Assembly: GCF_000425225.1 (NCBI RefSeq)
Contig: NZ_AULJ01000008.1
Span: forward strand, 1-64,000
DNA length: 64,000 nucleotides
From: Pontibacillus marinus BH030004 = DSM 16465
GTDB lineage: Bacteria; Bacillota; Bacilli; Bacillales; BH030062
Direction of reading: 5' to 3'
The notes under the pieces were generated by a model. The model had not been told where the DNA came from and made no database searches. It saw only the letters and a list, made by a program, of their open reading frames with translations. Position numbers and translations under genes: made by a program. Positions 4,242 to 34,971 of this stretch are shown here, piece by piece; the first letter of the stretch is position 1, and each line of letters opens with the position of its first letter.

Positions 4242-4292
4242 GGGACGGTTCTTCTGTTTGTGAAAAAAGATACAAACGAAAGAACCGTCCCC
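4242..4292 (+). repeat. GGGACGGTTC palindromic repeat, copy 2
   Basis: GGGACGGTTCTTCTGTTTGTG, an A-rich centre, then CAAACGAAAGAACCGTCCCC. Near-palindromic and about 50 bp, it follows the CAP-protein gene and could also terminate its transcript. Confidence 0.85.
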
Positions 4293-4315
4293 GCGTTTGC
4301 TTCCCGCGTTTGCAA
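4290..4315 (+). repeat. 13-bp tandem duplication at the repeat's 3' edge
   Basis: CCCGCGTTTGCTT followed by CCCGCGTTTGCAA. The unit begins with the terminal CCC of the palindromic repeat and includes the adjoining flank; 11 of 13 bases are identical. Confidence 0.65.
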
Positions 4316-4500
4316 TTTCGCTTTTTCATCCCATAAAAGGACGGAAAAAGATCAATTTAACTAAAAGAAAAATCACTTTTGACTATATTTCCTCCCCATA
4401 AAATCGAAAAAGACCCATTCGCCTTTCCAAAGATAAACGTGTAAACTAGTCACACAATCAAACGGAGGAGAGCTTGTTTCTCTTCGGAAGGAGCAACCGA

Positions 4501-5078
4501 ATGTCGGCAAAAGTAACATGTATTGGATTGAAAGGACTTGATGGATACCGGGTCCAGGTGGAAGCGGAAGTGACGGAAGGTGTTGAGTCGATGGTAGTTG
4601 TAGGGCTGCCGGATGCTTCGGTGAAGGAGTCGAAGGAAAGGGTTTCAGCGGCGGTCAGGAATCTTGGTTTTTCGCTTGTTGATCAGAAGGTGGTCAATTT
4701 ATCGCCTGGGGAACAAAAAAAGAACGGACCTCTGTTTGACCCTGCAATTGCTCTGGGCGTGCTTAAAAGTGGAGGTTTTTTGAAAGGAGAGATTCCAGAG
4801 AATACAGCTTATATCGGTGCGGTTTCTCTGGATGGGTCTGTGATCCCTGTTGAAGGAATGACTGCAGCAGTTCTTGCGGCGGGGAGGTTGGGTATCGAGC
4901 GTCTATTTCTGCCATTTGACCCTGATGTACCTGATATAAGCGTACGAGGACTTGAGCTTGTGTACATTTCGCATATCTAGGACGTCATCGATCATCTCTC
5001 TGGTCAGTCTAAGCTTCATTTTTTACCCGAGCGTCCCAATCATGAAGAAACGTTTGAATGTGAACAGGATTTTTTTTT
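4501..5078 (+). pseudogene. comM/yifB (Mg-chelatase-family ATPase) remnant, nonsense-mutated and truncated
   Basis: ATG 4501 has AAGGAG upstream. The 159 residues to TAG 4978-4980 match the N-terminal domain of YifB/ComM (GLKGLDGYRVQVEAEVTEG, VVGLPDASVKESKERV, GEQKKNGPLFDPAIALGVL). The same frame continues after the TAG with family-like sequence (DVIDHLSGQSKLHFLPERP), so the TAG is a nonsense mutation, probably of a Lys codon. Homology stops at a T-run near 5070, where the AAA+ and C-terminal domains (about 340 residues) should follow. Full-length members are about 500 residues. The REP-associated transposase gene begins 15 bases later. The gene is very likely non-functional, although the N-terminal domain could still be translated. 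Confidence 0.82.
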
Positions 5079-5093
5079 AAGGCAGGGGAATTT

Positions 5094-5873
5094 ATGCCAA
5101 GGCGAGCGAGAAAAAAGAGTAGAAGCGGCATTTACCATGTGATCGTACGAGGAGCGAACCGTCAGGAGATTTTTCATAAGGAGGAAGACCGACTACGTTT
5201 TCTGGAAACATTGAAACGATACAAGATCGAAAATGATATTGAGGTACTGGCCTGGTGTCTGATGGATAACCATGTGCACCTTTTGCTAAAGGAGAAAGAC
5301 AAGACTATATCGGATCTGATGAAGCGGCTTGGAATCAGCTATGCTTCATATTACAACTGGATATACGGGACAAACGGTCATCTGTTTCAGGACCGATTCA
5401 AGAGCGAGAACGTTGAAACGAATGGCTATCTTGCGACGGTCGTACGTTATATCCATATGAACCCTGTAAAAGCGGGTCTTGTCCGTGGACCGGAGGAGTA
5501 TGTGTGGAGCAGTTGTAGTAATTATTATGGAAAGCGTTCCTATCCAGTGGACCTTCTCACCTCGTCATTAGTCTTCGCTCTATTTTCCCCGGAGAAAGAA
5601 AAAGCTCAAATGCTGATTAAGGAGTTTCATGAGCGGCAGTGTGACGATAAGTGTTTGAGTGCATGGGGAGAGAAGCGAGTCCGGTTAAGAGACGAGGAGG
5701 CGAGAGGTGAAATTATGGAGGTGCTTGGCGATTTAGAGATTCCACAGGTGAAGTCGCTTCCGGGGAGGGAGCGGGATGAGGTACTGAAAAGGGTGAAGAA
5801 AATTGAAGGGCTGTCACAGCGTCAGGCAGCTAGGATTCTTGGTGTTTCGGTTTATTTGGTGAACAGGGCTTGA
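5094..5873 (+). CDS. REP-associated tyrosine transposase (RAYT, HUH/Y1 family)
   Basis: A 259-residue single-strand DNA transposase relative. The Y1 domain (about 1-145) opens with RSGIYHVIVRGANRQEIFH, has the metal-binding HUH motif in MDNHVHLLL (about 60-68), and the probable nucleophile Tyr in VVRYIHMNPVKAGLV. The C-terminus ends in a helix-turn-helix (LSQRQAARILGVSVYLVNRA), as in long Bacillus-type RAYTs, so the protein looks complete. Unlike IS200/IS605 elements, RAYT genes have no mobile ends of their own and are linked to short palindromic repeats. Here two copies of the GGGACGGTTC palindrome lie directly downstream (5895 and 6026). It probably acts on these repeats, which is inference. 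The gene replaced the rest of comM. Confidence 0.88.
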   Translation: MPRRARKKSRSGIYHVIVRGANRQEIFHKEEDRLRFLETLKRYKIENDIEVLAWCLMDNHVHLLLKEKDKTISDLMKRLGISYASYYNWIYGTNGHLFQDRFKSENVETNGYLATVVRYIHMNPVKAGLVRGPEEYVWSSCSNYYGKRSYPVDLLTSSLVFALFSPEKEKAQMLIKEFHERQCDDKCLSAWGEKRVRLRDEEARGEIMEVLGDLEIPQVKSLPGRERDEVLKRVKKIEGLSQRQAARILGVSVYLVNRA

Positions 5874-5897
5874 TATGGGAACAGGGCTTGATATGGG
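5862..5897 (+). repeat. Exact 18-bp tandem duplication at the 5' edge of a palindromic repeat
   Basis: AACAGGGCTTGATATGGG occurs twice in a row, then continues as GACGGTTC of the repeat. The first unit contains the transposase stop codon (TGA 5871-5873). Confidence 0.9.
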
Positions 5898-5945
5898 GAC
5901 GGTTCTTCTGTTTGTGAAATAATCCACAAACGTGAGGGCGTTCCT
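5895..5945 (+). repeat. GGGACGGTTC palindromic repeat, copy 3
   Basis: GGGGACGGTTCTTCTGTTTG, a short centre, then CACAAACGTGAGGGCGTTCC. The right arm is eroded. Starts 22 bases after the transposase stop codon. Confidence 0.8.
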
Positions 5946-6025
5946 ATATGTCACTTTTTTAATAGAGATGTTCTTAATCTCAAAACCTCTTTTCAGTCGT
6001 TCTTCAGGGGCTTGCACAAATATAG

Positions 6026-6078
6026 GGACGGTACTCGCGTATGTTTATAACTTCACAAACAGCGAGAACCGTTCCTAT
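6026..6078 (-). repeat. GGGACGGTTC palindromic repeat, copy 4 (inverted)
   Basis: GGGACGGTACTCGCGTATG at the left and TTCACAAACAGCGAGAACCG at the right. The loop content shows it is in reverse orientation. It lies between the transposase gene and the 3' end of the nuclease-helicase gene. Confidence 0.8.
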
Positions 6079-6095
6079 GGTATAAGGTATTGGGT

Positions 6096-9000
6096 TTATT
6101 GATAAATTTCTAAAGTAATATTTCTATCGCTTATATGATGAAAACTAGGGGCAGTATAATTTAAATGATTTTTAATACCCAAGAAAAAGCTATAATTATG
6201 GATGTTTCTTTCTTCCAAAAGAGTAGAATAGTTTGGTTTAAATAAGGTATCAGGTATGAGTAAGATTAGTTTCTTCATAGCTCGTGTCATAGAGACATTA
6301 AGCCTTTTTAAACTATAAAGAAAATCAGCTTCCCTTTCAGCCAATTCTTCATCGGTTATACCATAACTCACGATGACTACCTCAGCTTCTTGGCCCTGGG
6401 CTTTATCTACCGTTCCGATATTGGGAAGTGGTATATGATTAGCAATTAACTTTTCCTTAACCAGCTGAATTTGGTCTTTGTGAGGACAGACGATAAACAA
6501 ACGATTCCCTTTCCAAATATCTTCATTGATGTTTGCTTGATTTTTGAATGGTTTGCCACTATAGTAACAAACTAGTTTCTTCACTGTTTCAAGAATAATC
6601 GTAGCTTCGACTTCGTTATCACGTCGAGCTAAGGCACCTTTTGTAATTCCGAGGGTTAATGGTGCCTGCGGATCTAAAAGTTTCGATGTATAGCTATTAG
6701 GATCTTTACGAATTTTAGACTGATCTAAAGTTTGTTCTGCTATTGAACGTTCAGGTGCTTTGTAGTCCTTGTCATCAGTGTTATAAATCTTCTTTGCGGA
6801 ATAAGAAGAAATGTAATCATTCATTCTAAAATTGTCAGATAACTGACAAGGCTCAATATGATGTTTCTCTAATAATAAACTGAATAATGAATGGGTAGAG
6901 AATGGTTCTTTCTCTTGAAAGTCACCTTTAAAAACAGGTGGGAGTTGGTAATGATCCCCTACAAGGAGTAGCCTGGCACTATCGGAATTATGAAGTTTGG
7001 TTGTGGCCATTAGCCCTTCTGTTAGTTTTACTTGAGATGCTTCGTCAATAATAATGAGATCGTAATTAACTTCATAACCTTTTTCCTTTATTTTTTGTTG
7101 TTGAGAAAGTGTTGTACCCGTGATACTAATTGGATAATCCTCGAGAAAGTCTTGATAATCATCGTATATATTTCTTCTACTCTGATATTCCAAATTAACA
7201 AAGTTTGGAAAAGCGTTAGCTATCTCATCAGATTTACTTTCTTTTAACCCGTCAAGTTTACATACCCCTATTTGATCTAAGTCTAAGTCAGTAATAAACT
7301 TTTTCAAACCATCAATTATCTTTGCCAAACAATTCTCGATAGCTGTATGCGTTTGGGCGCTCACCAAAATATTTAACCCTTTATCTTGTTCTTGATAAAG
7401 TTTTATAAACAATACCAACGCTAGTGAAATAAAGGTTGTCTTGCCGGTACCAGGAGGACCCCAGAGAAGAGTAAGCTTGTTATTAACTAAATGTTTGAAT
7501 GTGTTTAGTTGATCGTCTGTGAAATTTACTAATTCTTTCGCTTCCTCCCAATAGTCGTTATCTATAGAATTATTAATGGGCTGTTGATATTTATTTGGAT
7601 CTTGCAATAAGAGATAACTTTCTTCAGGATTATTGTCAAATTCTCTAATGGCTTTCAAGGTTCTCTTTCTCATAGGATTAAAATAAATAGGTGCAAATAT
7701 ATAATTTTCATTGGATTTTAATTGATTTGGCAATTTACTTGCTTTGAAATATATACATCTCTCACTAAGATTGACCTCTTTTGGATTTAATGGGCTCATG
7801 GTATTATCTTTAATTTTATTAAGCTCAACCCAGCCCTTCTCGTCATCGTTCAAAATCATCCATCTATTAAATGGTGAATACATTTTTATACCTGTATCAT
7901 TTAAGATGTTAAATTTCGCTATATTATTCTCTTCACCCTTATATTTAACATGCAAAACATTTCCCTTATGAATTTGTTCTTCAATAGGTAATTGTCGCTG
8001 TTTCACTAAATCCTGCAATTGTATATAGGATTCATAGTTTGTTATAAAAGCAAGTTTCTCACTCAGGTTATTAGAATATTCAGTCTCAATCGGAAAGGTT
8101 TTAAAACGTGCATCAAGTACAAGTCTGTCACCACAAAGCTTTTTTATTGAGTAGACTATTAGGGATAACGCATGCTGTTTAGCTTCTAAAATTGACTTAA
8201 TTTTAGAAAGCTCTCGCTCCTTTTCTTTTTCCCCATCCCAGTAAGAATATAATGCATCAATTTTGACACGACCTGATAAAGGGGATAATAAACCGTTACG
8301 GTCTTCAATAGGAGCTCCTATAAGGGTGCGATAACCCACTATTCCCTGTAAATATTCATAAAATTGTTGCGATACTTCTTTTATAGTGTTTGCAAAAGGG
8401 ATTGGCAATGCATATAACCTTTGAACTGCCTGTTGAACAATAGTATAGGGATATGGAACAAAGTCATTCAGTTGTTCCTCTGTATTGGGGCCTCCTATTT
8501 CTAATAGCTTGTGAGAGTAACAGAGATATAAAAGAGCTTTTGCTTTGTCTTTAATAGAATGTTCTATTGTGGCATCTTGAATGATCTGTAATAGTAAATC
8601 GATGTAAAGATCTTTCTCATAACTAGTATAAAAATATAAATGAAAGGTCTCTTTCCTATAGATTATATCTTGAATAATTTTATGAAATTCATCTACAAAC
8701 TCTTTGTTCAGTTCATATGAAAGTTCCACACTTTCTGGGATTAGTGGACCGAAACTCTTCTTTAATTGAAATGATTCACTATAAACAACTAAGCTTTGAC
8801 CAAAAAAGCTACCGCTAATAGGATCTTTTTCAATTGTTATGCACACACTGTTATCTTCTTTCTTGGGCATATCCACCAATTTTTGATTTGTAGGAATGAT
8901 TTTGTTGGTGTTAAGTGATGTAATTTCATTCTCCAAGCCGTCACGCCTCTTGAAAAAACTATCGTTCTTTGCAAGTAATTCTGGATTTTCTGTTATTAAA

Positions 9001-10661
9001 AATTGTAAGGTACTAAGAGTAGAAGAAGCTTGCCCATTTGGAATGTAGCTTGAATCGAGCGAATTTAAAAAACGACTTGTATAAGGGCTGAGATCATGAA
9101 GTCGCGATATATGCTGGTCTGTTTCCGTGGTTTTTATACAGTGCTTTAAAAAAGAACAATTTTCACATTGTCTATAAATATGATAGTTAAGATCTTGAGC
9201 GTAAGTTTGATTGTCGGTGTTAATTATGTCACTCAATTCTTTATTGAAGAAGGCATGAACCACCTCTTTTACAGGGAGGAGGTCGAATGTTTCGTAAGTT
9301 TTGACGTTATTCTTTGTCCAAATCCCGCCTTTATTATTTCGAATTTTAAAGTGATGGCTAAGTGTTGGGGTGTGCTCAATAATCTTCTCTAAAATCATAG
9401 TATATAGAGTTACTTGAATCTTTTGGGATGGTTTTATTTCCTCTGAAGACTTTGCATCTATTACACGTAGATTATATTGATCGTCGTGTACATCATCTTT
9501 TGAAATTTCAATAAAATCTATTTCAATGGGTTTTATAGTGGGTAAATTTTCTTCTTTAAACTCTTTATAAAATTCTTCAGGTACAGTAGAAATAGAAGAG
9601 TAAATATAATAGTTGTGTTTATCAAGATTTAGACGTTTTTTTTGATGAAGAAATTTTTCGAGTTGATAGGTAATATCCCTATGTTTATCAATGGTACTAT
9701 CTGATACTTTATGACCTTTTACAATTAGTTCAGAGCGGATCTGTTGTTCCCATTGATTGCCCGCTTCCTGTTGAATCCCATTAGCTTCGGTACGCTTAAT
9801 ATTCAGTTCCTCAAGTTCTTTATTGGTTTTACTATTGAGAAAAAGTTGTCGATCACAACCAGTAAAAAAATAGTTAGATAAACTAGAGACAGATACTTTT
9901 TTCTTTCTGCTGGGCTCGTGTGGTAATGACTCGCGTATATGTTCCTCATAGTCAAAGGACAGCTCATGTTTATGGGAAAGATCTTTTATTACACCCACTA
10001 AGTCTTCCGCACTATCTATAAAGAATCTAGGTTTACAACTAAAGTTCATAGCATAATCATTACAATCTACATCAATGTTTGTTGTATTTGTTGGAAAATA
10101 AGGTTCTAAACCCTTGTAATCAAAGTTATAAACCAATCCATTAGTATAAGCATAAAACTTTAAGTCGTATAAGAAATTAAATCTATGTGATGCTTTATCG
10201 CATCCTAAGTTAAAGATAAATCTGGGGTGATCAGTTTCATCAGGTATCAAAAGGTTAATATCATGATTAGGTTTTAAATTTGTAAAAACATACGGGTGAT
10301 CTCTATGTTTGAGGTTAAAATAGTCTCTAAGTCCAAGAACATTGAGGATATGTTTTGTTTCACTGGTGCCTCCGAACATGTTACTAAGCCATATTTGATT
10401 TCCTGAATCATCTTTTAGTATAAAGTGGTATTCATTGTGGTTTTCATAGGAGTATTGATGCCTATTTCGGTTGAATTCTTTTAAATCTGTAAAATAGTGA
10501 TTCTCATGATAATGATGTGAGTTTTTAATGCTCGCAATGTGATAGGGTGTATCATCGCTATGAATTTCGAAATGAGTAATGTTTCCAATAAAGGGTAGTA
10601 TGGATTTTACATAGTCTAATCCTTCCATAGAAGGGGAAGGTTCATATGAAAATATAGCCAA
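6096..10661 (-). CDS. Dna2-like fusion: RecB-family nuclease with Fe-S cysteines plus SF1B helicase (candidate phage defence)
   Basis: A 1521-residue protein. Residues 1-250 are an unrecognised His/Asn-rich domain. Residues 255-520 form a PD-(D/E)XK nuclease: C269 opens a Cas4/AddB/Dna2-type Fe-S set closed by C499, C502 and C508 (CENCSFLKHC), with EIDFIEI, IDAKSS (D402, K404) and a following Q-x3-Y helix between. The C-terminal third is a UPF1/Dna2-type SF1 helicase: Walker A GPPGTGKTT near 1070, Walker B DEAS near 1207, DKAQGQEAE near 1420 and LNVSMTRA near 1455. All key motifs are present. The start is TTG 10659-10661 with GAGAGG upstream, 14 bases after a small membrane-protein gene. Such fusions process DNA ends or flaps. 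The repeat-bounded accessory setting suggests anti-phage defence, but this is unproven. Confidence 0.85.
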   Translation of the reverse strand: MAIFSYEPSPSMEGLDYVKSILPFIGNITHFEIHSDDTPYHIASIKNSHHYHENHYFTDLKEFNRNRHQYSYENHNEYHFILKDDSGNQIWLSNMFGGTSETKHILNVLGLRDYFNLKHRDHPYVFTNLKPNHDINLLIPDETDHPRFIFNLGCDKASHRFNFLYDLKFYAYTNGLVYNFDYKGLEPYFPTNTTNIDVDCNDYAMNFSCKPRFFIDSAEDLVGVIKDLSHKHELSFDYEEHIRESLPHEPSRKKKVSVSSLSNYFFTGCDRQLFLNSKTNKELEELNIKRTEANGIQQEAGNQWEQQIRSELIVKGHKVSDSTIDKHRDITYQLEKFLHQKKRLNLDKHNYYIYSSISTVPEEFYKEFKEENLPTIKPIEIDFIEISKDDVHDDQYNLRVIDAKSSEEIKPSQKIQVTLYTMILEKIIEHTPTLSHHFKIRNNKGGIWTKNNVKTYETFDLLPVKEVVHAFFNKELSDIINTDNQTYAQDLNYHIYRQCENCSFLKHCIKTTETDQHISRLHDLSPYTSRFLNSLDSSYIPNGQASSTLSTLQFLITENPELLAKNDSFFKRRDGLENEITSLNTNKIIPTNQKLVDMPKKEDNSVCITIEKDPISGSFFGQSLVVYSESFQLKKSFGPLIPESVELSYELNKEFVDEFHKIIQDIIYRKETFHLYFYTSYEKDLYIDLLLQIIQDATIEHSIKDKAKALLYLCYSHKLLEIGGPNTEEQLNDFVPYPYTIVQQAVQRLYALPIPFANTIKEVSQQFYEYLQGIVGYRTLIGAPIEDRNGLLSPLSGRVKIDALYSYWDGEKEKERELSKIKSILEAKQHALSLIVYSIKKLCGDRLVLDARFKTFPIETEYSNNLSEKLAFITNYESYIQLQDLVKQRQLPIEEQIHKGNVLHVKYKGEENNIAKFNILNDTGIKMYSPFNRWMILNDDEKGWVELNKIKDNTMSPLNPKEVNLSERCIYFKASKLPNQLKSNENYIFAPIYFNPMRKRTLKAIREFDNNPEESYLLLQDPNKYQQPINNSIDNDYWEEAKELVNFTDDQLNTFKHLVNNKLTLLWGPPGTGKTTFISLALVLFIKLYQEQDKGLNILVSAQTHTAIENCLAKIIDGLKKFITDLDLDQIGVCKLDGLKESKSDEIANAFPNFVNLEYQSRRNIYDDYQDFLEDYPISITGTTLSQQQKIKEKGYEVNYDLIIIDEASQVKLTEGLMATTKLHNSDSARLLLVGDHYQLPPVFKGDFQEKEPFSTHSLFSLLLEKHHIEPCQLSDNFRMNDYISSYSAKKIYNTDDKDYKAPERSIAEQTLDQSKIRKDPNSYTSKLLDPQAPLTLGITKGALARRDNEVEATIILETVKKLVCYYSGKPFKNQANINEDIWKGNRLFIVCPHKDQIQLVKEKLIANHIPLPNIGTVDKAQGQEAEVVIVSYGITDEELAEREADFLYSLKRLNVSMTRAMKKLILLIPDTLFKPNYSTLLEERNIHNYSFFLGIKNHLNYTAPSFHHISDRNITLEIYQ

Positions 10662-10675
10662 TATCCGTCATCCTC

Positions 10676-11137
10676 TCAATCAAAAAAGCCAAATTTTTTC
10701 TGAAGAAAATCAAAAGCAGAATCTACAAGTGAAATTATGGTTCTTGCAAGGTTAAGGGCTAAGATTAAGATAACTCCAAACAAGTGAACTGATAATAATA
10801 CTGTTAGTAAAGTGGCGGGACTATTATTCATATTGGAAACCAAATCAATTAATGAGTAAGTGGAGGAAAATTCATTGATCTGACTTAGACTAATGCTTTC
10901 ATTAAAGAAGATTGGCGAACAGAAATGAATAATACTATAAAAAAGAAAAAAAGAAAGTACATTTAAACTTACCCCGCTATGAAGTATTAAGATTCTTTTC
11001 CACACAGACACATTGTGTGCTTTCAACTTTTGTGGGTTTACTTTAAAGAACCGACTTAGATTCACAATTCCTAGTTCATCTAGAAATATGCAGTAAAACA
11101 ATATCAGTAATAACAAAAACCATCCAATAGCATCCAT
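10676..11137 (-). CDS. Small membrane protein upstream of the nuclease-helicase
   Basis: A 153-residue protein with three likely membrane segments (about 4-20, 48-72 and 108-132) and a basic stretch after the first. The start ATG 11135-11137 has an ideal AAAGGAGG seven bases upstream. A longer frame running back to 11362 passes through a palindromic repeat and is not credible. The gene ends 14 bases before the nuclease-helicase start, so the two form an operon. The family is not recognised. It may anchor the partner or act as an effector if the pair is a defence system; both ideas are inference. Confidence 0.72.
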   Translation of the reverse strand: MDAIGWFLLLLILFYCIFLDELGIVNLSRFFKVNPQKLKAHNVSVWKRILILHSGVSLNVLSFFLFYSIIHFCSPIFFNESISLSQINEFSSTYSLIDLVSNMNNSPATLLTVLLSVHLFGVILILALNLARTIISLVDSAFDFLQKKFGFFD

Positions 11138-11246
11138 AAAAAGTCCTCCTTTAATTTGTTCGAAATAAATATATGTGCTAATGGACAAGTATATGTCAAT
11201 AGCATGTGATGAAGTTACGGGGGCTTGAAACATGGAAACAAAACAT

Positions 11247-11296
11247 GGGGACGGTTCTTTTGTTTGTGAAAAAGATACAAACGCGAGAACCGTCCC
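11247..11296 (+). repeat. GGGACGGTTC palindromic repeat, copy 5
   Basis: GGGGACGGTTCTTTTGTTTGTG ... ACAAACGCGAGAACCGTCCC, a close match to the consensus. It lies upstream of the two-gene nuclease-helicase operon. An imperfect duplication (GAAACATGG / AAAACATGG) precedes it. Confidence 0.88.
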
Positions 11297-11318
11297 GGTG
11301 TTACTACCGGTGTTACTA
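11295..11318 (+). repeat. Exact 12-bp tandem duplication at the repeat's 3' edge
   Basis: CCGGTGTTACTA twice in a row, starting with the last C residues of the palindromic repeat. Confidence 0.88.
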
Positions 11319-11340
11319 TTACTGCTAAACTTCATAATTT

Positions 11341-11370
11341 TTGGCAACACGACTATTTTCATGGTAACAT
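11341..11370 (+). promoter_or_regulatory. Probable promoter of the c-di-GMP riboswitch transcript
   Basis: TTGGCA (11341-11346), an 18-base spacer, then a TGG-extended TAACAT (11365-11370). It lies about 30 bases upstream of the riboswitch aptamer. Confidence 0.45.
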
Positions 11371-11394
11371 TGTACTAATTAAAGATGGTTAATT

Positions 11395-11482
11395 TGAGAA
11401 AAGCAAACTTATTGAAAGATAAGGACGCAAAGCTATAGGGCCTAATGCATCATTCTGTTATGGTAGCCTGGTTGCCGAGGAA
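11395..11482 (+). promoter_or_regulatory. Cyclic di-GMP-I (GEMM) riboswitch aptamer
   Basis: The order of motifs matches the GEMM-I consensus: AGCAAACTTATT-GAAA-GATAAG (stem P2 capped by the conserved GAAA tetraloop), GGACGCAAAGC (ligand-binding core), then CTATAGGGCCTAA (tetraloop-receptor side of P3) and TATGGTAGCCTGGTTGCCGA closing P3/P1. It binds c-di-GMP. A terminator follows directly, so control is probably by transcription termination of the secreted-protein gene at 11539. Whether the ligand turns expression on or off cannot be read with confidence. Confidence 0.92.
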
Positions 11483-11487
11483 GGAAG

Positions 11488-11519
11488 CACGTATCGACCT
11501 TATCGGTATGTGTTTTTTT
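11488..11519 (+). terminator. Terminator of the riboswitch expression platform
   Basis: CACGTATCGA pairs with TCGGTATGTG (10 bp, two G-T pairs, five-base loop), followed by seven T residues. It lies six bases after the aptamer and 20 before the start codon at 11539. Confidence 0.75.
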
Positions 11520-11538
11520 ATTAAAGGAGAGAAGAAAC

Positions 11539-12666: not shown

Positions 12667-12696
12667 AAGTATTTGAAGTATGAAACGAGGGAAAAC

Positions 12697-12837
12697 TTGA
12701 TATATGCTCTAGCAATTCTTTTCCCGCCAGCTGCTATAATGCTGTTAGGAAAACCCAAAAAAGCTTTGTTGAATCTATTGCTATGGTTATTTTTCATTTT
12801 TCCAGCTATAATACATGCACTTTATAGTAGTAGATGA
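12697..12837 (+). CDS. Pmp3/YqaE-like small membrane protein, 46 aa
   Basis: A short gene starting at TTG 12697 with GAGGG seven bases upstream. It encodes two hydrophobic helices joined by a GKPKKALLN turn and ends IIHALYSSR. The pattern ILFPPAAIMLLGKP..LLNLLLWLFFIFPAIIHAL is that of the Pmp3/YqaE family of plasma-membrane proteolipids, which influence membrane potential and salt tolerance. It starts 30 bases after the c-di-GMP-controlled gene and could be cotranscribed. A terminator-like hairpin follows at 12897. Confidence 0.8.
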   Translation: MIYALAILFPPAAIMLLGKPKKALLNLLLWLFFIFPAIIHALYSSR

Positions 12838-12896
12838 TAATCAGGAAGATGAGTCATTAGAAATCGTACTGAACATTAAATATTAAACAAAAATAA

Positions 12897-12929
12897 AAGG
12901 GTCTACCCAAATTAGGGGGAGGCCCTTTG
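12897..12929 (+). terminator. Probable terminator hairpin
   Basis: AAAGGGTCTACCC and GGGGGAGGCCCTTT can pair with few mismatches. The T run is short. Confidence 0.5.
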
Positions 12930-12965
12930 TACTATCTACTAGAAAACCATTGGTGATAAATTTGA

Positions 12966-13110
12966 ACTGTCAATAAACCTCAAAAGTGCTTTGGACACTG
13001 GGATGAAACCTATCTTAAATTTGGGGAAGAGGGCTTTTACAAGGAACGTAGTGGACGTCCCTCTTCAAAAGAACTTACTACGGAGGAGCAGCTAGAGAAA
13101 AGTATTATAG
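12966..13110 (+). pseudogene. Fragment of an IS3-type OrfA (helix-turn-helix transposase part)
   Basis: One frame reads W-DETYLKFGEEGFYKERSGRPSS and then KELTTEEQLEKSI. This resembles the end of the HTH and start of the leucine-zipper region of IS3/IS150-type OrfA proteins (YxxxGEEGxYxxRxGR pattern). It has no start codon, no partner OrfB and no inverted repeats, so it is a relic. Confidence 0.5.
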
Positions 13111-13195
13111 TTTTGACTCAGGCCTTTTTCAACAAAAATTTGCTAAAATATATTTCATTATTGTTTCTCATTACCTAATAGATCAAGAGAGAAAG

Positions 13196-24778: not shown

Positions 24779-24807
24779 CAAACGTCTACACCATGGGAGG
24801 ATGAAAA

Positions 24808-26022: not shown

Positions 26023-26076
26023 TAGGTCCATAGTCTATCTGAATTTCTACATCGTTTTGTTACGTTACTAATATTT

Positions 26077-26112
26077 AAAAGAACCGCATCCATCTGAGGA
26101 TGCGGTTCTTTT
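26077..26112. terminator. Bidirectional intrinsic terminator
   Basis: AAAAGAACCGCATCC pairs perfectly with GGATGCGGTTCTTTT around a six-base loop. It sits between convergent genes ending at 26022 and 26196. Confidence 0.85.
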
Positions 26113-26195
26113 AGTCTGACATGCTTTGGGTTAGGTCGTAATGATAAGACAAACATTTTCGTTTACGTAAAGGGAGAGGAGATATTTATTTCCTT

Positions 26196-28316: not shown

Positions 28317-28624
28317 AACTTTTCCTCCTTTTTAATATCCTATAATTATTCATAGTATAAAAAGAAACGTTACCAAAGCATTACTGGGAAGAATAGGGGG
28401 TAGGTCCATAGACTCTTAAGCTTTATTTAATTTCTTGAGTGATTGGTAGAAAAACTTTTAAGATTAACCATCGGAGATACCTGTTTTCTTTCGAAAGTAA
28501 GAATATCTCAAATAATTGATGTTAGTCCTTTTTGCTTACTATCTATAGATTTTTTGTTCTCTACCTCATAAAATGGAATTAAAAGTTATTTATGTGCGTC
28601 GTAATATGCGTAGGAGGGGAGAAT
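28317..28624. other. Divergent intergenic region
   Basis: It carries the promoters of the zincin gene (left) and the hydrolase-regulator gene (right), plus a second-family repeat at 28394-28420. No gene is seen. Confidence 0.45.
28394..28420 (+). repeat. Second dispersed repeat family, weak copy
   Basis: AGGGGGTAGGTCCATAGACTC. It keeps the TAGGTCCAT core but not the closing CCC. Confidence 0.4.
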
Positions 28625-30067
28625 GTGAGTTTTTACACCAAAGATAACGAAGAAGCGGTTTATTATAAGTACATACAAGGTGAACAAGAGGATGGAGAAA
28701 CGCTTTTACTACTACATGGCATTGGTCTTGAACTAACGATGTGGGAGAAACTTATCCCTTATTTACACGATTACAATATTTTAATGCTAGACATTCGAGG
28801 GCATGGTCGTACACAAGGAAGTATGACGCCTGTTCAGTGGAGTTTATTTATTGATGATATTGTGATGTTAGTCGAACATCTAGGAATAAAAGTTGATCAT
28901 ATTGTGGGTCATGGACTCGGGGCGTTTCTTGCCTACGAAATCATACATAAAGAAATATTACCTTCAAAGAGTCTTACCATTGTTTCCACCCCCTTTTATT
29001 ATCCAATTGAACCAGGGAAAAAAGGAGTTCAATATAGGAGGGATCATTCAGATAATTTAGCTGATCTTATGATTCACTTTTTATTAGCTAAAAAAACTGA
29101 AGAACATGAAGCGTACATTCGAGATGCTTTTGGAAAAGTTAATTTGCAAGAGTATTTTGAAGTATTAGAGTTCCTATACAAAAATACTTCAATTGAGAAG
29201 TTGAAAAATATTGAAGTACCAGTTTTCATGCTTTCAGGTGAGCATGACCTGAATTATCCACCACAATTGTTAACTTATAACGCTCATTTCATTAAAAATG
29301 TACGAACCTTGATTGTGCCTGCAGCATCCAATTTAATTCCCATGGAACAGCCAGTTATCATGGCAAAATGGTTAATAGATTTCTACGAGAATCTAAAAAA
29401 CGATCATTCAGTCGTCACAATTCCTTACTTAGCAGAACTAGGCCACCACTTACATCCCCAACCTAAGAATGAATCCATTCCAGGAGAGGTGCGTATTTTA
29501 AATGGGTTTGAGTTCTATTATAAGGGCCATCAATTACAAGGCAATTGGTCGAAGCGTAAGATGAAAGAAATTTTAACGTTTTTATCCATTCATCAAAAAG
29601 TGTCTAGAGACCAAATCTGCGATCATATTTGGCCAGAATCCCTCTTGAAGAATGCGAAAAACTCCTTGCGAGTCAGTCTCAATCATATAAAACAACTGCT
29701 TAAAGAGAATAATGCAGAAAATATGCTATCAATTGATCATCAAACTGTTTCTTTCGAAGTGCCGGTAATTTGTGATGCTGTCACGAAATGGGAGCAGTTA
29801 AAGCTCATTACTGATGAAGATGATAATGATGTATTAAGAGACAAGTTATTCAAGTTCTTAGATGATTACCCTACTAAACCATTCCCTCATATTTTTGAGG
29901 ACTGGATTTTGGAATATCAATATGAAATTGAAGAACGAATTAAACAAGCCTTAGTTGATATTTATCAAAAGAACCTCGATTCAGAGAATAAAGCCCAACT
30001 TAAAGCAACTGAACAGTATATGGAGCGATTTGGTATGTACGATGAAGTGATGGAACTAGTCTATTAA
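28625..30067 (+). CDS. Regulator: catalytically dead alpha/beta-hydrolase fused to SARP/BTAD-like transcription factor
   Basis: The start is set at GTG 28625, seven bases after GGAGG; a frame from 28592 would include that ribosome binding site. The 480-residue product begins with an alpha/beta-hydrolase fold (about 1-260: LLLLHGIGLELTMWEKL, DIRGHGRTQG). The nucleophile elbow reads GHGLG (95-99) where Ser is expected, D208 is kept (GEHD), and the catalytic His is replaced by N236 (PAASNLIP). Both Ser and His are lost, so it cannot work as a hydrolase. Residues about 285-375 are a winged helix of the OmpR/SARP type (WSKRKMKEILTFLSIHQKVSRDQICDHIWPE), followed by a BTAD-like helical domain. It probably is a ligand-sensing transcription factor. 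Neighbours do not reveal its target. Confidence 0.8.
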   Translation: MSFYTKDNEEAVYYKYIQGEQEDGETLLLLHGIGLELTMWEKLIPYLHDYNILMLDIRGHGRTQGSMTPVQWSLFIDDIVMLVEHLGIKVDHIVGHGLGAFLAYEIIHKEILPSKSLTIVSTPFYYPIEPGKKGVQYRRDHSDNLADLMIHFLLAKKTEEHEAYIRDAFGKVNLQEYFEVLEFLYKNTSIEKLKNIEVPVFMLSGEHDLNYPPQLLTYNAHFIKNVRTLIVPAASNLIPMEQPVIMAKWLIDFYENLKNDHSVVTIPYLAELGHHLHPQPKNESIPGEVRILNGFEFYYKGHQLQGNWSKRKMKEILTFLSIHQKVSRDQICDHIWPESLLKNAKNSLRVSLNHIKQLLKENNAENMLSIDHQTVSFEVPVICDAVTKWEQLKLITDEDDNDVLRDKLFKFLDDYPTKPFPHIFEDWILEYQYEIEERIKQALVDIYQKNLDSENKAQLKATEQYMERFGMYDEVMELVY

Positions 30068-30080
30068 TCGATCGAACATA

Positions 30081-30129
30081 GGGACGGTTCGTCTGTTTGT
30101 GAAAAAGATACAAACGCAAGAACCGTCCC
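30081..30129 (+). repeat. GGGACGGTTC palindromic repeat, copy 8
   Basis: GGGACGGTTCGTCTGTTTGTG ... ACAAACGCAAGAACCGTCCC, almost exactly the consensus. It lies 13 bases after the hydrolase-regulator stop codon. Confidence 0.88.
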
Positions 30130-30187
30130 TATGATAAGGCGATAAAAAATGGATTTATAATAATATTACGAATCATTACTTATTAAA

Positions 30188-31054
30188 TTGATTGGACTGA
30201 TTTATTTGATTGAGAATTTTAGTGAAGTTTCAAGTGTACTTTTTGGTGTTTCTAGTGGATTGTTAACTATTGTGGGTTTGATAGCAGTGTACATAACATT
30301 AAATAGTCAGCAGAGTGTGGAAAAAGCAAGAGAGATATTATGGAATTTGCAATCATTAAACTTTTCAATTAAAAAAAATTTCAGTGAAGAGAATACTGAC
30401 TCATTACAAGAAATAAGATGGTGGTTTCGACACTATGAAAATCTAGTAAGTAAGAGTAAACCTACCGATGTTGTAACATATTTAGCAATAATAACAATTT
30501 GTTTTGTTGCATTCTCATGGACTACTTTTACACTTATGGTTGATCTAAGTTCTCCATTAAATGTTTTTATGGTGGGATCTATTCTTGTTTTATTATCATT
30601 TAGTTATATGCTCTTTAAACTAAATGATAATAAAAATTTGGGTAAGTTACCTAGCTACCATGAATTAATGTCAATGAATCACAAAGACAAAACAGAAATG
30701 GACATGCTACAAATCTTGAAGAAAACAACAATTTGTGAAGTATCCTTTGAAGATGATAGTAGTATTAAGTTATTCTTTCATTTTCCTTTTAATAAAATGG
30801 AGTTTAAGTATGAGGTAACAGTGTTCGACACTGAAGAAGGAATACTCGGTGGAGAGGCGATTGCTTCTAGTCATTTCACGCTTGAGGAATTAGATACAGT
30901 TTATTCTCCTTCCGAATTGATGGGGATGGACCTGGATTACTTATTAGTAAGAGTGGATTTTTGGCATGACTCAAAAGAACAGGATATTTATGGACGAGAG
31001 TTTAAGTTTCCTCTATTTGAGTATAAGGAAGAAGATGATTTTCAGACAGTGTGA
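30188..31054 (+). CDS. Membrane protein of unknown function, 288 aa
   Basis: Starts at TTG 30188; no clear ribosome binding site is visible, so the start is uncertain. Three membrane helices (about 17-37, 94-114 and 119-141) flank a cytoplasmic helical loop (SQQSVEKAREILWNLQSLNF..). The C-terminal half (about 170-288) is soluble, alpha/beta and acidic, with FHFPFNKMEFKYEVTVFDTEEG and ELMGMDLDYLLVRVDFWHDS. No family recognised. It sits between two palindromic repeats as a single-gene cassette. Confidence 0.6.
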   Translation: MIGLIYLIENFSEVSSVLFGVSSGLLTIVGLIAVYITLNSQQSVEKAREILWNLQSLNFSIKKNFSEENTDSLQEIRWWFRHYENLVSKSKPTDVVTYLAIITICFVAFSWTTFTLMVDLSSPLNVFMVGSILVLLSFSYMLFKLNDNKNLGKLPSYHELMSMNHKDKTEMDMLQILKKTTICEVSFEDDSSIKLFFHFPFNKMEFKYEVTVFDTEEGILGGEAIASSHFTLEELDTVYSPSELMGMDLDYLLVRVDFWHDSKEQDIYGREFKFPLFEYKEEDDFQTV

Positions 31055-31060
31055 GGAAAT

Positions 31061-31131
31061 GGGGACGGTTCTCCTGTTAGCCGTAGGGGGGAGTTTCATC
31101 TTCCTTTTATAAACGTAAGAACCGTCCTCCC
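31061..31131 (+). repeat. GGGACGGTTC palindromic repeat, copy 9, with enlarged loop
   Basis: GGGGACGGTTCTCCTGTTAG, about 30 extra bases, then TAAACGTAAGAACCGTCCTCCC. The arms are conserved while the centre is replaced or expanded. Confidence 0.75.
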
Positions 31132-31142
31132 TATATATAAAG

Positions 31143-31796
31143 TTATGGTGTGAATTCCATCTTAACCCCCTCAGATAACGCAATACCGTCTTTACTCTGT
31201 ACTTCGCTAGTTATCACCAAGATATGAGTCTTGTCCATCCATCCCATTACAAATGGCTTAAACTTGACTGTGGTTTGCCCATCTGTTGTGTATTCAAGCT
31301 GCCCATTACTTTCAGGATGTCTAATTCCATTTTTATCGATGACATAGAAATTATCCCTATTAATTGTACTTTCTTTTAACTTAGTAGAAAAGGTTATGGA
31401 CCACACTTTATCTTTACCCACATTAATCTTTGTAGGAAGACTTTTATACTCTTTTATAGTGTCTAACATTTTTTCTCTTTCTAGTTCTTCTTGTTCTCTT
31501 TTTTCTTTTTCAGCTTCATATTTACTTTCATATTCTACATTACTACTGTGTTTTATTACTTCAAAATTACCTATATTATACCATATGTGTTCCTCACCAT
31601 ACACAACACCTAAGACTTTCACAGTTGTCCCTTTTTGAATCGTTCTTGATTTAGGGAAATCTTTAGAATTAAAATAGACATTTGTTTCAGCCTTTACAGT
31701 AAGCTTCCCAACTGAATCTACTTCGGCATTAGTTACTGGTGAACATACAAGAAAAATGAAGAGTATCAAACATATGGATATAATCTTCTTTAACAT
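31143..31796 (-). CDS. Secreted SH3-like plus SbsA/Big_5-like protein, 217 aa
   Basis: ATG 31794-31796 has GGAGGAG upstream. A signal peptide (1-24, ending TNA-EV) is followed by an SH3b-like segment (about 28-85: KLTVKAETNVYFNSKDFPKSRT, IQKGTTVKVLGVVYGEEHIWYNI) typical of cell-wall binding. A charged linker (YEAEKEKREQEELEREK) leads to the shared Ig-like module (about 118-217: DKVWSITFSTKLKES, NFYVIDKNGIR). It is the smallest of the six module-bearing proteins. It may bind the wall or another surface protein. Single gene. Confidence 0.78.
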   Translation of the reverse strand: MLKKIISICLILFIFLVCSPVTNAEVDSVGKLTVKAETNVYFNSKDFPKSRTIQKGTTVKVLGVVYGEEHIWYNIGNFEVIKHSSNVEYESKYEAEKEKREQEELEREKMLDTIKEYKSLPTKINVGKDKVWSITFSTKLKESTINRDNFYVIDKNGIRHPESNGQLEYTTDGQTTVKFKPFVMGWMDKTHILVITSEVQSKDGIALSEGVKMEFTP

Positions 31797-31869
31797 AAAA
31801 TCTCCTCCTGCTAATTTTCTATATCCTCTCTATTAGTTATTTTATACCATATAGTAATTTAATACTATA

Positions 31870-31896
31870 AAGGGATAGGCCCATCGTCTCTTTGGA
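31870..31896 (+). repeat. Second dispersed repeat family, copy
   Basis: AAGGGATAGGCCCATCGTCTC followed by TTTGG. It is close to the copies at 17467 and 42839. Confidence 0.5.
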
Positions 31897-31990
31897 GTAT
31901 CGAAATATTAGGGAGATTATTCATACAGAATTTTTTGAAGGATAGGTTTCTGGATTCAGATTAAATACATATATGGGATTGGTGGTGTGA

Positions 31991-32428
31991 AGGGGTAATG
32001 CTATTCTTTTCCTTTGTTTCAATAGTGGAGGTATTAGTTGGGGAGTCTCTTCTTATGTATTTAATAATTTATTTCCTATAACATTTTATAAAGAGATAAA
32101 TGGAACTGGAAACACTAAAAGTTCTGAACTACTAGATGATAATGTTGGATTAAACCCACACCCGAGAGTTTATTTATTTCCGATTTATCAATGTTTTATG
32201 AGACAGAAGACGATCCTTACATGCCTGTTTTAAGAGGCATGCAGTATATCCGGTTTACATCTGGTACGAACCTTCCTAAGGATATAGAGTTAAACAAATG
32301 GTATAAACGAGTCGTTGATGTGAAATTTTCTAAAAAAAAGACAAGGTGGAGATCCTGTGAGCTGGGATACTGCTAAGTCGGTTTTAGATGGAGTGATTCC
32401 TATTACTTCATATGAAGAACTGAAATAA
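31991..32428 (+). pseudogene. Decayed hypothetical gene with two frameshifts
   Basis: Three frames join into one protein. GNAILFLCFNSGGISWGVSS.. to NPHPRVYLFPI (31991 to about 32190) continues after a shift as FYETEDDPYMPVLRGMQYIRF.. to VVDVKFSKK (to about 32340). A second shift in an A-run leads to RQGGDPVSWDTAKSVLDGVI and PITSYEELK, ending at TAA 32426-32428. About 140 residues remain and the start is lost. The family is not recognised. It lies among repeats, as do most decayed genes here. Confidence 0.6.
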
Positions 32429-32431
32429 ACA

Positions 32432-32452
32432 CGGGAATAGAACCGTCCCTAT
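32432..32452 (+). repeat. GGGACGGTTC repeat, 3' end only (copy 10)
   Basis: GGGAATAGAACCGTCCCTATG keeps the right arm only. Confidence 0.45.
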
Positions 32453-32583
32453 GTATGTATCTGTATGTCATATAAGCTTATATACTTATTAAATCATTTA
32501 GAGAAATCACATTTTTTGGGTTTTTTGATTCATTTAATTGTTGTAAACTAGTAAATGAATACTATATTTTGAGGGGTGACACC

Positions 32584-33003
32584 ATGTCTAATGTTGAAAG
32601 ATTCAAAGAATTATTAAGGCAAAAAGAAATTTATATGAACGAAGGAACAAATGAAGACGGTAGTGTGTTTTTTCGTACTGAACAAAAATTAAAAAATGGT
32701 GGTTCAATCGGTTTAGTTGTAGCATTCTCAGTCGAAGAGCATATGGTTGATGTTTATGGTTTTGATATTGCTGAAATAACAGATCCATTAAAAAAGGAGT
32801 CAATACATAAATTACTAAATGAAATTAATATAGATTATAGATTTAATAAATTTTATATGGATAATCAGGGGAGAATAAGTAGCAGTGCTGCTTTAATATT
32901 TGAAGACAATTTCAATCCTAATGTAGTTTTCAGATTAATGGTTATGGCGCTAAATACTGCTGATGAGGTTTATCCGAAGTTTATGAAAGTGATGTGGTCA
33001 TAA
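32584..33003 (+). CDS. YbjN-like small protein, 139 aa
   Basis: Start chosen at ATG 32584, preceded by GAGGGGTGA. The fold pattern (ERFKELLRQKEIYMNEGTNEDG, FFRTEQKLKNGG, VVAFSVEEHMVDVYGFDIAEI, LLNEINIDYRFNKFYMDNQGRI, then VFRLMVMALNTADEVYPKFMK) matches YbjN/type-III-chaperone-like proteins, which have a helix, a beta sheet and a C-terminal helix. These are thought to act as small chaperones or regulators. It is a single gene with its own terminator, and no membrane segment is seen. Confidence 0.62.
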   Translation: MSNVERFKELLRQKEIYMNEGTNEDGSVFFRTEQKLKNGGSIGLVVAFSVEEHMVDVYGFDIAEITDPLKKESIHKLLNEINIDYRFNKFYMDNQGRISSSAALIFEDNFNPNVVFRLMVMALNTADEVYPKFMKVMWS

Positions 33004-33005
33004 AG

Positions 33006-33031
33006 AAGACAACCTTTTATGAGGTTGTCTT
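33006..33031 (+). terminator. Intrinsic terminator
   Basis: AAGACAACC pairs with GGTTGTCTT, followed by TT(C)T. It lies immediately after the YbjN-like gene. Confidence 0.75.
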
Positions 33032-33160
33032 TTCTAAACCCATAAACATATCACTATGTTTAAATGATTATTAACAGCTAAAGGATGAAAGGCATACCAG
33101 CTGTTATATAATATAACAATTTTAAAGACAGAACCCATTATCCTAAAAGGAGAGAATTAA

Positions 33161-33538
33161 GTGAAAAAAGATAATAGTCTTACTGACATAACAATTGATT
33201 TTGAAGGACAAAAACTAAAATTCCCAAATATGAAACTGTCCGAGGGTGCAGTGCTTTTTTATTTAGAATCTCAACCTCATTTGGAAAATCCGTATGAATT
33301 GATGATTTTTGAAGATTATATGGAAGCTAAAAATTTAGTGGCATGGCTTGAGGTAAGTAAAAGAACATTATCTGAAATAGATAATCATATAAAAGACAAC
33401 TGTCCATCATTTAAGGGATGTTCTCACTTTAATCATTCCAACCTTCCAAAAACGAAAACAGTTGATTTTGTGAACGATAGAAATGAAGTCGACTTTTCTG
33501 CTCAAATTATCAACTTTGAAAACATCTTTTCAGCATAA
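33161..33538 (+). CDS. Hypothetical protein, 125 aa
   Basis: GTG 33161 has AAAAGGAGAG upstream. The protein is soluble and acidic, with a short beta-strand start (TDITIDFEGQKLKFPNMKLSEG) and a helix (DYMEAKNLVAWLEVSKRTLSEIDNHIKD). Two Cys and three His residues occur near 100-112 (CPSFKGCSHFNHSN) and might bind metal. I do not recognise the family. Its stop codon overlaps the first base of a tandem duplication that marks the edge of a palindromic repeat. Confidence 0.55.
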   Translation: MKKDNSLTDITIDFEGQKLKFPNMKLSEGAVLFYLESQPHLENPYELMIFEDYMEAKNLVAWLEVSKRTLSEIDNHIKDNCPSFKGCSHFNHSNLPKTKTVDFVNDRNEVDFSAQIINFENIFSA

Positions 33539-33562
33539 GGAAACATGGGAAGGAAACATGGG
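33537..33562 (+). repeat. Exact 13-bp tandem duplication at the repeat's 5' edge
   Basis: AAGGAAACATGGG twice in a row; the last GGG is the start of the palindromic repeat at 33561. Confidence 0.88.
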
Positions 33563-33589
33563 GACGGTTCGTCTGTTTGTGTCGTCCCT
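33561..33589 (+). repeat. GGGACGGTTC repeat, internally deleted (copy 11)
   Basis: GGGACGGTTCGTCTGTTTGTG joins directly to TCGTCCC. The centre and most of the right arm are deleted. Confidence 0.7.
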
Positions 33590-34029
33590 TTATATTGTTT
33601 TTTAACCGAGATGTTCATAAGGTCATTTTCTGCAAACTAATCCTCATATTTTTGTACAATCTCAAAAACTCTTTTCATAAATGCTCCTCTTAATTGTTTT
33701 CTGCAAGCAATCTCATTTTAGGTTAAAGATCATTATTGTGAATAATCCTAATGACAATCATCAGAACTGCACTACCCTTTACACGTTTATTATTAATGAA
33801 CGCCAATGAATTCACCGAACACTGCCAATCTATATACCAGTCCCTTTGATAAAACGATCGCATACTTATTATTTATAAAAATAGATATTTCTGTTAAAAT
33901 AAATAGTAAATATTACCTATAACCTATGGAAATAGTTAATACATTTTAACTGATAACCATAGGCTTGGGTTGATGGGAATAAATTCTATAATAAGAGGTT
34001 ACGATGAAATGAATAGAGGAGAAAAAATA
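33590..34029. other. AT-rich intergenic region
   Basis: No gene is seen apart from an alternative upstream start of the glycosyltransferase frame (TTG 33970 / ATG 33973), which lacks a ribosome binding site. A-T-rich promoter-like sequence occurs around 33870-33910. Confidence 0.4.
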
Positions 34030-34851
34030 GTGGTTAGTCCATATGTTTCTATTGTTATCCCCACATATAATCGGTTGCTATACTTGACGGAATTAATGGA
34101 ATGTTTAAGTAGACAAACCTTTCAAAGCTTTGAAATTATTATTGTGAATGATTGTGGAGAAAAGGTGGATATTGTAAAAGAGTTATACCCTCAGTTGTTG
34201 ATAACGATTATCGAAATGGACACGAATGTAAAGCATGTTCATGCTCGAAATGTAGGCGTAGCTCATGCAAATGGTGATTATATCATGTTAATCGATGATG
34301 ATGATTTAATTGTTTCTACACACCTTAAAACCATGCTCGAGGTTATATCTGAATATGATTTGATCTATTCTGATGTAGAGATTGTTAATTATGAATGGAT
34401 TCATCAAGTACGTGTGCCTAAAGCACGTTTTTTATTTGCTTATGAGTTAGACTTAAAAGGTATGCGCACATTCTCGACCTTTATTCCTTCTGGATGTTTA
34501 TATCGAAAAGAAATTCACGATCAAATCGGTGGGTTTGATGCCGACATGCATCATTACTGGGATTGGGATTTCTTTTTACGTGTGTCAGAAAAGTTCCGAG
34601 TCAATCGCGTTCCTGTGGCAGGCGTCCTTTATGACTTCTCTGATAGTCATGGTAATCAATCCAAGAATGTAGATTCGATGCAAGGATATTTAAAGAAGTT
34701 ATCAGAGAAACATAATCTAGGCGAGCTCCCAACCAAGAATTTTTTTACGTTGTTAGATGAACCAGGGGTAAAGAAGAGGAAAGCAGGAACCAAACAAGTA
34801 TGGGATGGAACTCCTTTTAGAACACGAGCGACTAATCGGACGCACCTTTGA
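34030..34851 (+). CDS. Family 2 glycosyltransferase (GT-A fold)
   Basis: Start chosen at GTG 34030 with AGAGGAG eight bases upstream; the frame is open back to 33970. The 273-residue protein begins a few residues before the hallmark VSIVIPTYNRL strand. It shows the nucleotide-binding EIIIVNDCG, the NVGVAHANGDYIMLIDDDDL metal-binding DxD-type motif and the acceptor-side GGFDADMHHYWDWDFFLRVSE (catalytic ED/WD region). GT2 enzymes transfer sugars from nucleotide donors to surface polysaccharides or proteins. It stands alone with no other polysaccharide genes, so the acceptor is unknown. The last dozen residues (RTRATNRTHL) look like drift at the repeat edge. Confidence 0.82.
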   Translation: MVSPYVSIVIPTYNRLLYLTELMECLSRQTFQSFEIIIVNDCGEKVDIVKELYPQLLITIIEMDTNVKHVHARNVGVAHANGDYIMLIDDDDLIVSTHLKTMLEVISEYDLIYSDVEIVNYEWIHQVRVPKARFLFAYELDLKGMRTFSTFIPSGCLYRKEIHDQIGGFDADMHHYWDWDFFLRVSEKFRVNRVPVAGVLYDFSDSHGNQSKNVDSMQGYLKKLSEKHNLGELPTKNFFTLLDEPGVKKRKAGTKQVWDGTPFRTRATNRTHL

Positions 34852-34947
34852 AAAAGGGGGAGAGTTCTATTGTTTGTGAAGTGTTGGAGGATGCAGGGAC
34901 GTTTCTTGTATTGGTTGATATTGTCACTGAGAATTTCTTGAACAAGA

Positions 34948-34971
34948 TGATAACAAGGGTGATAACAAGGG
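34948..34971 (+). repeat. Exact 12-bp tandem duplication at the repeat's 5' edge
   Basis: TGATAACAAGGG twice in a row, then GACGGTTC of the palindromic repeat. Confidence 0.88.

Follow-up and report, generated by a model that had tools for sequence, protein, structure and literature searches.

Tandem duplication of a flanking module at the 5' edge of palindromic repeats linked to a Y1/HUH transposase in Pontibacillus marinus and related bacteria

The DNA analyzed here, which we call the window, is a stretch of 64,000 nt from Pontibacillus marinus BH030004 = DSM 16465 (contig NZ_AULJ01000008.1, positions 1 to 64,000), in which repetitive extragenic palindromic (REP) sequences are dispersed and flank the gene of a Y1/HUH transposase. 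A preliminary description claimed that five of these repeats carry a short tandem duplication at their edge, and the question that the locus raises is whether such duplications belong to the repeats and what kind of event makes them. All five are present, at the same coordinates:

5862 to 5897, plus strand: exact tandem duplication, 2 x 18 bp, 5' of the arm with core 5896-5905
33537 to 33562, plus strand: exact tandem duplication, 2 x 13 bp, 5' of the arm with core 33561-33570
34948 to 34971, plus strand: exact tandem duplication, 2 x 12 bp, 5' of the arm with core 34970-34979
11295 to 11318, minus strand: exact tandem duplication, 2 x 12 bp, 5' of the minus-strand arm with core 11296-11287
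4290 to 4315, minus strand: tandem duplication of period 13, 11 bp exact, 5' of the minus-strand arm with core 4291-4282

The mismatches in the duplication at 4290-4315 are the final two bases of the unit; the other four, all exact, are also listed by Tandem Repeats Finder. Of 14 exact GGGACGGTTC arms in the window, only these five carry a self-match of 10 bp or more; a further 13-bp copy lies outside the window in the same genome, at L229:3638 (contig position 87638). Two parts of the preliminary description needed correction. It took each unit to consist of flank plus the terminal GGG or CCC, but the unit at 11295 holds just two of the three C; it also stated that different loci duplicate different sequences, which holds for the site-specific flanks, although several units contain a common module such as AAACATGGG.

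Read in its own orientation, each arm has three parts: a module on the 5' side that spans about -8 to +2 and ends in GG, then the core GACGGTTC, and lastly a 3' arm at about +13 to +19. The repeats of the window are the following:

4242 to 4291, no strand assigned: REP pair, two inverted arms
5896 to 5945, no strand assigned: REP arm with a degenerate inverted partner, directly 3' of the transposase gene, scored as single
11248 to 11296, no strand assigned: REP pair, with a weak module repeat (8 bp exact) on its left side too
30081 to 30129, no strand assigned: REP pair without duplication
33561 to 33580, plus strand: single REP arm
34970 to 35016, no strand assigned: REP pair

The family extends well beyond this genome: ATGGGGACGGTTC is present in 108 of 397 genomes of the order (our second sample), and GGGACGGTTCT reaches 120-234 copies per genome in eight repeat-rich genomes. 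Within the window's own genus there are also GGGACAGGT families, whose module and core overlap in sequence. In two genomes the arms are also strongly strand-biased, with 37 of the 39 listed in G395 C1:1129806-1337915 on the minus strand and a bias of 6/6 in G012 C1:2620373-2659414; such bias over long stretches would fit a replication-linked spread through single strands.

To score duplications we counted as a match any exact self-match of at least 10 bp, with a period of 7-30, that ends at the 5' edge of an arm. Two sets of arms were used. The first comprised 570 arms, 13 of which, from the single loci G033, G027, G035 and G040 (two of them duplicated), are absent from the second; the second comprised 868 GGGACGGTTC arms from 27 genomes or loci, includes cores in coding DNA, and retains 683 arms after a REP-like filter. 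In the second set, 72 of the 868 arms (8.3%) had a match, spread over 15 of the 27 genomes or loci, and of these matches 55 are complete tandem copies (8-18 bp), 6 are almost complete and 11 have a longer period. Shuffled flanks in which the module was kept gave 12 matches in 17,360, and other GC-rich palindromes in the same DNA gave one in 294 edges; duplications are thus not as frequent at other GC-rich palindromes as at these arms, the point on which the preliminary description had made its claim depend. The first set yielded 53/570 arms against 13/12,624 control GGG sites, and 2/570 when the arms were anchored 35 bp further upstream. The window's own genome has 30 exact cores, 26 of them in the DNA used, and 7/26 were matched against 0/1,799 control GGG sites. 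Among single arms a match was found at the 5' edge in 37/384 and at the 3' edge in 2/384, so that duplication "at the repeat edges" can be narrowed to the 5' edge of the arm in its own orientation. An excess of GGG 5' of non-duplicated arms was unreadable, because the module itself starts with GG in several families. These counts confirm that the edge duplication beside these repeats is real. In the first set, 29/278 single arms and 21/292 paired arms were duplicated (p=0.18); with no lower rate in single arms than in pairs, a large palindrome is not needed for duplication, and slippage at a large palindrome was rejected as a necessary cause.

The boundaries of the duplicated unit were then read from 55 exact duplications (match of at least 9, fewer than about two extra copies). 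An inner junction at GG^GACGG (+2) is allowed in 46 of the 55, and 16 of the 20 unambiguous junctions fall there, which bears out the earlier suggestion of a specific event at the repeat end. For the 46 duplications in the +2 phase, the outer edge lies at -8 in 16, at -10 in 9, at -9 in 8, at -11 in 5 and at -7 in 5, with -6, -12 and -16 found once each. The inner boundary is therefore nearly fixed and the outer one variable, commonest at -8 near the 5' end of the module, whose conservation starts at -9 or -8 in 7 of the 9 genomes profiled. In G151, probably Halobacillus locisalis, the module is weakly conserved (0.3 bits at -8) and 7 of 9 full copies are 10 bp long. One arm, at G151 L257:17820, has a near-triple copy by score, and others were seen by eye. 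Microhomology at the junction showed no significant excess, either in the GGAAGC-type families (1.48 observed against 1.76 expected, p=0.76) or in the other families (1.33 against 0.89, p=0.11).

The module (about -9 to -3) is able to pair with the 3' arm (+13 to +19) in one frame in most genomes, with module/3' arm pairs such as GGAAGC/GCTTCC, TGAAAC/GTTTCA, GGCTAA/TTnGCC and TGACGC/GCGTCA. That frame yields Watson-Crick pairs in 66% of cells, and twelve other frames yield 21-42%. Among the 20 genomes represented by 12 or more arms, 18 have 3' arms that pair better than one random draw of other genomes' arms; Bacillus sp. PS06 and Bacillus massilionigeriensis, whose best frame is one shorter, do not. 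About four module-arm pairs are present in the family of the window itself. An earlier, looser pairing test found no excess in H. locisalis or Halobacillus salinus and little in the window's genome. Module and 3' arm co-vary between genomes in a way that resembles the target and guide of IS608. Directly 3' of the transposase gene of B. massilionigeriensis, at L105:10777-11000, repeat arms with a shared spacer form a 50-bp tandem array.

The preliminary description had also proposed a connection with an HUH nuclease, and the repeat family is indeed tied to a gene of this kind:

5094 to 5873, plus strand: REP-associated tyrosine (Y1/HUH) transposase, 259 aa (NF047646, Y1_Tnp)

Its product matches NF047646 REP_Tyr_transposase (E=4.3e-23, 81.8 bits, cut-off 80) and Pfam Y1_Tnp (E=1.9e-17), and the translation contains HVH, an HUH motif, and YIHMNP, which fits the class 2 signature Y---NP (PMC6006769). 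The whole protein also scores above the Pfam cut-offs for HTH_23 (31.2; cut-off 24.6) and HTH_28 (26.1; cut-off 25), with the best stretch at 64-90, and the last 70 aa alone fall below the cut-offs (HTH_23 E=0.0035, HTH_28 E=0.087). Arms of the dispersed repeat flank the gene at 4242-4291 and 5896-5945, and its stop codon falls within the first unit of the 18-bp duplication. Eight other genomes in a sample of 61 have a homologue that is 49-62% identical along almost its entire length and in one case carries a stop; more genomes have one at 41-45%. Directly before the gene, at 4474-4980, lies a truncated ChlI-domain open reading frame of 168 aa, as if a gene had been disrupted; it may be ComM/YifB-like. 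Decayed pieces of a second transposase, with stops and 55-82% identity, lie in the same genome at G000 C4:88398-88973 (L229), less than 1 kb from the repeat with the 13-bp duplication.

When a long transposase was defined as a homologue of at least 50% identity (G211, counted as without, has a 42% relative), duplicated arms numbered 68/695 in genomes or loci with one and 4/173 in those without (p=0.0006). The difference persisted among REP-like-filtered arms (55/544 against 3/139, p=0.002) and within one genus, g29 (11/114 against 4/173, p=0.012); these p-values are a guide only, given the kinship of the species and the selection of the named loci for presence of the gene. For G317, duplications were predicted from the presence of the transposase and 10/58 arms had them; an earlier listing had already shown two arms 22 bp apart in this genome.

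Our best reading, held with about even confidence, is that the transposase nicks and rejoins DNA at its own cut site and leaves a tandem module behind. Nicking followed by out-of-register rejoining fits a unit about as long as the module, an inner boundary that is nearly fixed, duplication on one side only, microhomology without a significant excess and the partial link to the enzyme. The repeats would be mobile palindromes of an HUH transposase of the TIRYT / TnpA-Y1 subclass 2.1 kind. In most genomes the module and the 3' arm can fold together, so the 3' arm might serve as guide and the module as target, as in IS608, and the enzyme would nick at GG^GACGG, the cut site we infer, together with this enzyme as the agent and rejoining as the route. 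The strand would occasionally be rejoined one module out of register, leaving the module in tandem, possibly because the module is cut again close to its 5' end or is copied a second time on one strand, and such events would recur at repeats already resident. More tentatively, we propose as a general statement that a HUH transposase of the TIRYT kind may pick its landing and cut site by a family-specific DNA guide of 6-7 nt, and may repeatedly multiply the landing module in place by out-of-register strand transfer at chromosomal repeats. The duplications are a natural, countable scar at a nearly fixed position, one that predicts both the cut site GG^GACGG and the guide.

Several observations weigh against nicking and rejoining by this enzyme. 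G136 has the long transposase and 0/34 duplicated arms, as G234 has 0/3 and G396 1/19; the assemblies of G108 and G161 contain no such gene, yet each has 2/30 duplicated arms, so that a prediction of none in G108 failed; and 10 of the 11 duplicated arms in gene-bearing g29 genomes belong to G317 alone. Empty sites in three g29 species place the insertion boundary before GGG and not after GG. In the window's genome conservation begins at about -6, and the outer edges of the duplications lie at -10, -10, -11, -11 and -16. As for the guide, H. locisalis has frequent duplications but weak pairing (0.42), duplicated arms are not clearly better paired than others (4.12 against 3.97 of 6), and the arm at 5896, which has the longest full copy (18 bp), shows no module-arm fold (z=-0.27).

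The main rival, possible but in our judgement doubtful, is replication slippage at the small hairpin of module and 3' arm without any enzyme of the element, where the polymerase stalls and the nascent strand, or a 5' flap that was not removed, is joined in tandem. It draws on the strong module-arm fold of some arms (L378 z=-6.6, L276 z=-4.2, L379 z=-3.0), on the GG or GGG that GGAAGC-type families carry at both module ends as possible homology (sites 2 and 5 below), on the duplications of G108 and G161, where no long transposase was detected, and on the mean microhomology of the other families, which is above expectation but not significantly so. Slippage fits less well with a microhomology that nowhere exceeds expectation significantly and with an inner boundary clustered at +2; three duplicated window arms have a weak fold or none (z=-2.0, -1.45 and -0.27), and duplicated arms show no clear advantage in pairing. 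Moreover, the 94 arms of G358, G186 and G297 (70 of them REP-like) have no match of at least 10 bp, and the one that was folded, L276, folds well. The preliminary description had offered nick-primed slippage or HUH cleavage and rejoining as the cause; a specific event in an HUH-linked family is upheld, with the enzyme judged a more probable agent than slippage.

An unlikely and disfavoured alternative is that the duplication is made when the repeat inserts, as a one-sided target duplication, and has later collapsed in some species. Every duplicated unit does hold site-specific flank, and tandem repeats are, as general knowledge has it, able to collapse. Against this stand insertions shared by sister species. 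At site 2 of genus g29, G136, G108 and G276 have one module and G161 and G317 have two (an 11-bp unit and an imperfect 13-bp one, respectively), G276 being the most distant of the five species, at 81.5-82.7% to the others. At three more shared insertions two modules are found in just one species: at site 5, G317 is longer than G136 by a clean 10 bp; at site 7, G108 has an extra module, plus some T-rich sequence, relative to G317; and at site 3, G161 carries a duplication of 9 bp in comparison with G136, its flank being somewhat changed, and G317 has one module. The near-triple copies described above also speak against this explanation. The timing rests on these four shared sites (2, 3, 5 and 7), site 6 not being orthologous. 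An automatic comparison of 206 directional pairs showed no duplication in 180, a difference between the two members in 24 and a duplication in each member in 2, and some of the 24 look mispaired by eye (L382/L386, L384:11349/L397 and one L391/L384 row). Ortholog searches in distant species gave, for a G313 query, a best match of 77% over 2 kb in its genus and, for G151, matches of 65-85% whose intergenic flanks were unusable. Since one species has a single module and another two at four shared insertions, duplication seems to arise mostly at resident repeats, as far as aligned sister loci can tell, and older duplications may also have collapsed; the idea that the duplication marks the insertion itself accordingly lacks support. 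G358, G186 and G297 have both empty and filled sites, yet no match of at least 10 bp. Empty sister sites (L311:9060 against L289 and L272; L300:6361 against L283 and L315) look like small palindromes, for example TGACGCATGTGTCA, without the core; either such palindromes are where the repeats insert, or the repeats have been lost by deletion between short repeats such as CATG.

It is very improbable that independent target modules, adjacent by chance or through a preference of insertion for module runs, mimic duplications: some copies are imperfect, 22/166 arms with an upstream GGG are identical at 8-9 of 10 positions, and a control stretch further upstream also has 22/186 with 8-10 identical, but the signal disappears when upstream DNA is shuffled with the module kept, and the exact 10-bp copies of H. 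locisalis agree at non-consensus positions, for which reason this reading is disfavoured. Deletion within tandem arrays of whole repeats was rejected, as it would rarely copy site-specific flank, judging by what adjacent arms share upstream: in 73 adjacent same-strand arm pairs the stretch common upstream of the core is 0-3 bp in 55, 5 bp in 1, 8-10 bp in 13 and at least 12 bp in 4, and the B. massilionigeriensis pairs (L105) are a true 50-bp tandem array. A DDE element with a target-site duplication was rejected as well; as the preliminary description held, the copies are adjacent and on one side, and are not direct repeats that bracket an insert.

A DDE insertion sequence does occur in the window, at 1-1674 with its transposase at 99-1622, and its ends GAGACC..TGAAAAAGT adjoin the repeat core. 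End-like matches were also found in L231, L260, L264, L266, L267, L032, L050, L057, L106, L373, L413, L415 and L416. Among 20 distinct end-like matches for which DNA was retrieved, GGACGGTTC lies at most 14 nt before 6 according to a script flag; of the remainder, inspected by eye, 9 follow GAACCGTCC, 1 follows a degenerate core and 4 are apparently unrelated. This insertion sequence seems to target the repeats.

How do these repeats and their transposase relate to known systems? The comparison draws on parts of the papers cited. The literature searched on RAYT, REP, TIRYT and tandem duplication, from which subscription papers and preprints are mostly absent, yielded no title or opening of an abstract that describes the module duplication that we found, and neither do the parts consulted of the accounts of TIRtrons (PMC3733652) and IS608 (PMC8266576, PMC6006769). 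Nor did we find in these accounts, to the extent covered, a description of how the palindromes of this transposase subclass move. The CGTC REPs (Di Nocera 2013), with an unpaired tag and no flanked transposase gene, were rejected as a match: in the portion of that work compared they differ from the paired arms here, where CGTC pairs with GACG and a transposase gene is flanked. In E. coli, TnpA-REP cuts and transfers single strands (PMC8266576), and its GTAG REPs resemble our repeats in being short palindromes beside a Y1 transposase; unlike them, the repeats here combine a 6-7 nt arm pair with the core GGGACGGTTC and lack the GTAG foot, which is absent from the consensus of 11 genomes between -25 and +35.

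IS608 and ISDra2 are cut beside a target that is selected through its pairing with an internal guide (PMC8266576, PMC6006769). The module-arm pairing frame and its co-variation next to the putative cut site would be alike in this respect, with up to seven pairs here, unlike the tetranucleotides of IS608 (PMC8266576, PMC6006769). The TnpA-Y1 subclass 2.1 proteins (PMC6006769, BMC Genomics 2018) share with ours the great length, Y---NP and the HUH motif, and perhaps the helix-turn-helix similarity; their genes are reported, in the sections consulted, to have no REP-like sequences beside them, unlike the gene here, which dispersed arms flank. TIRtrons, or TIRYT elements, carry a Y1 transposase gene between inverted repeats with the motif GGGGWSAS (Di Nocera et al. 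2013, PMC3733652), and relatives in the window's genus similarly have GGGGACAG beside transposase genes. The core in the window reads GGGGACGG, one base off GGGG[AT][CG]A[CG], and the repeats here are, set against TIRtrons, single arms and pairs in 120-234 copies of GGGACGGTTCT per repeat-rich genome. Both features that define RAYT / TnpA-REP were found, a Y1/HUH domain and a gene flanked by a dispersed palindromic repeat. On present sequence comparison, the transposase would thus be related to TIRYT / TnpA-Y1 subclass 2.1, and transposase and repeats together probably belong with the RAYT/TIRYT systems.

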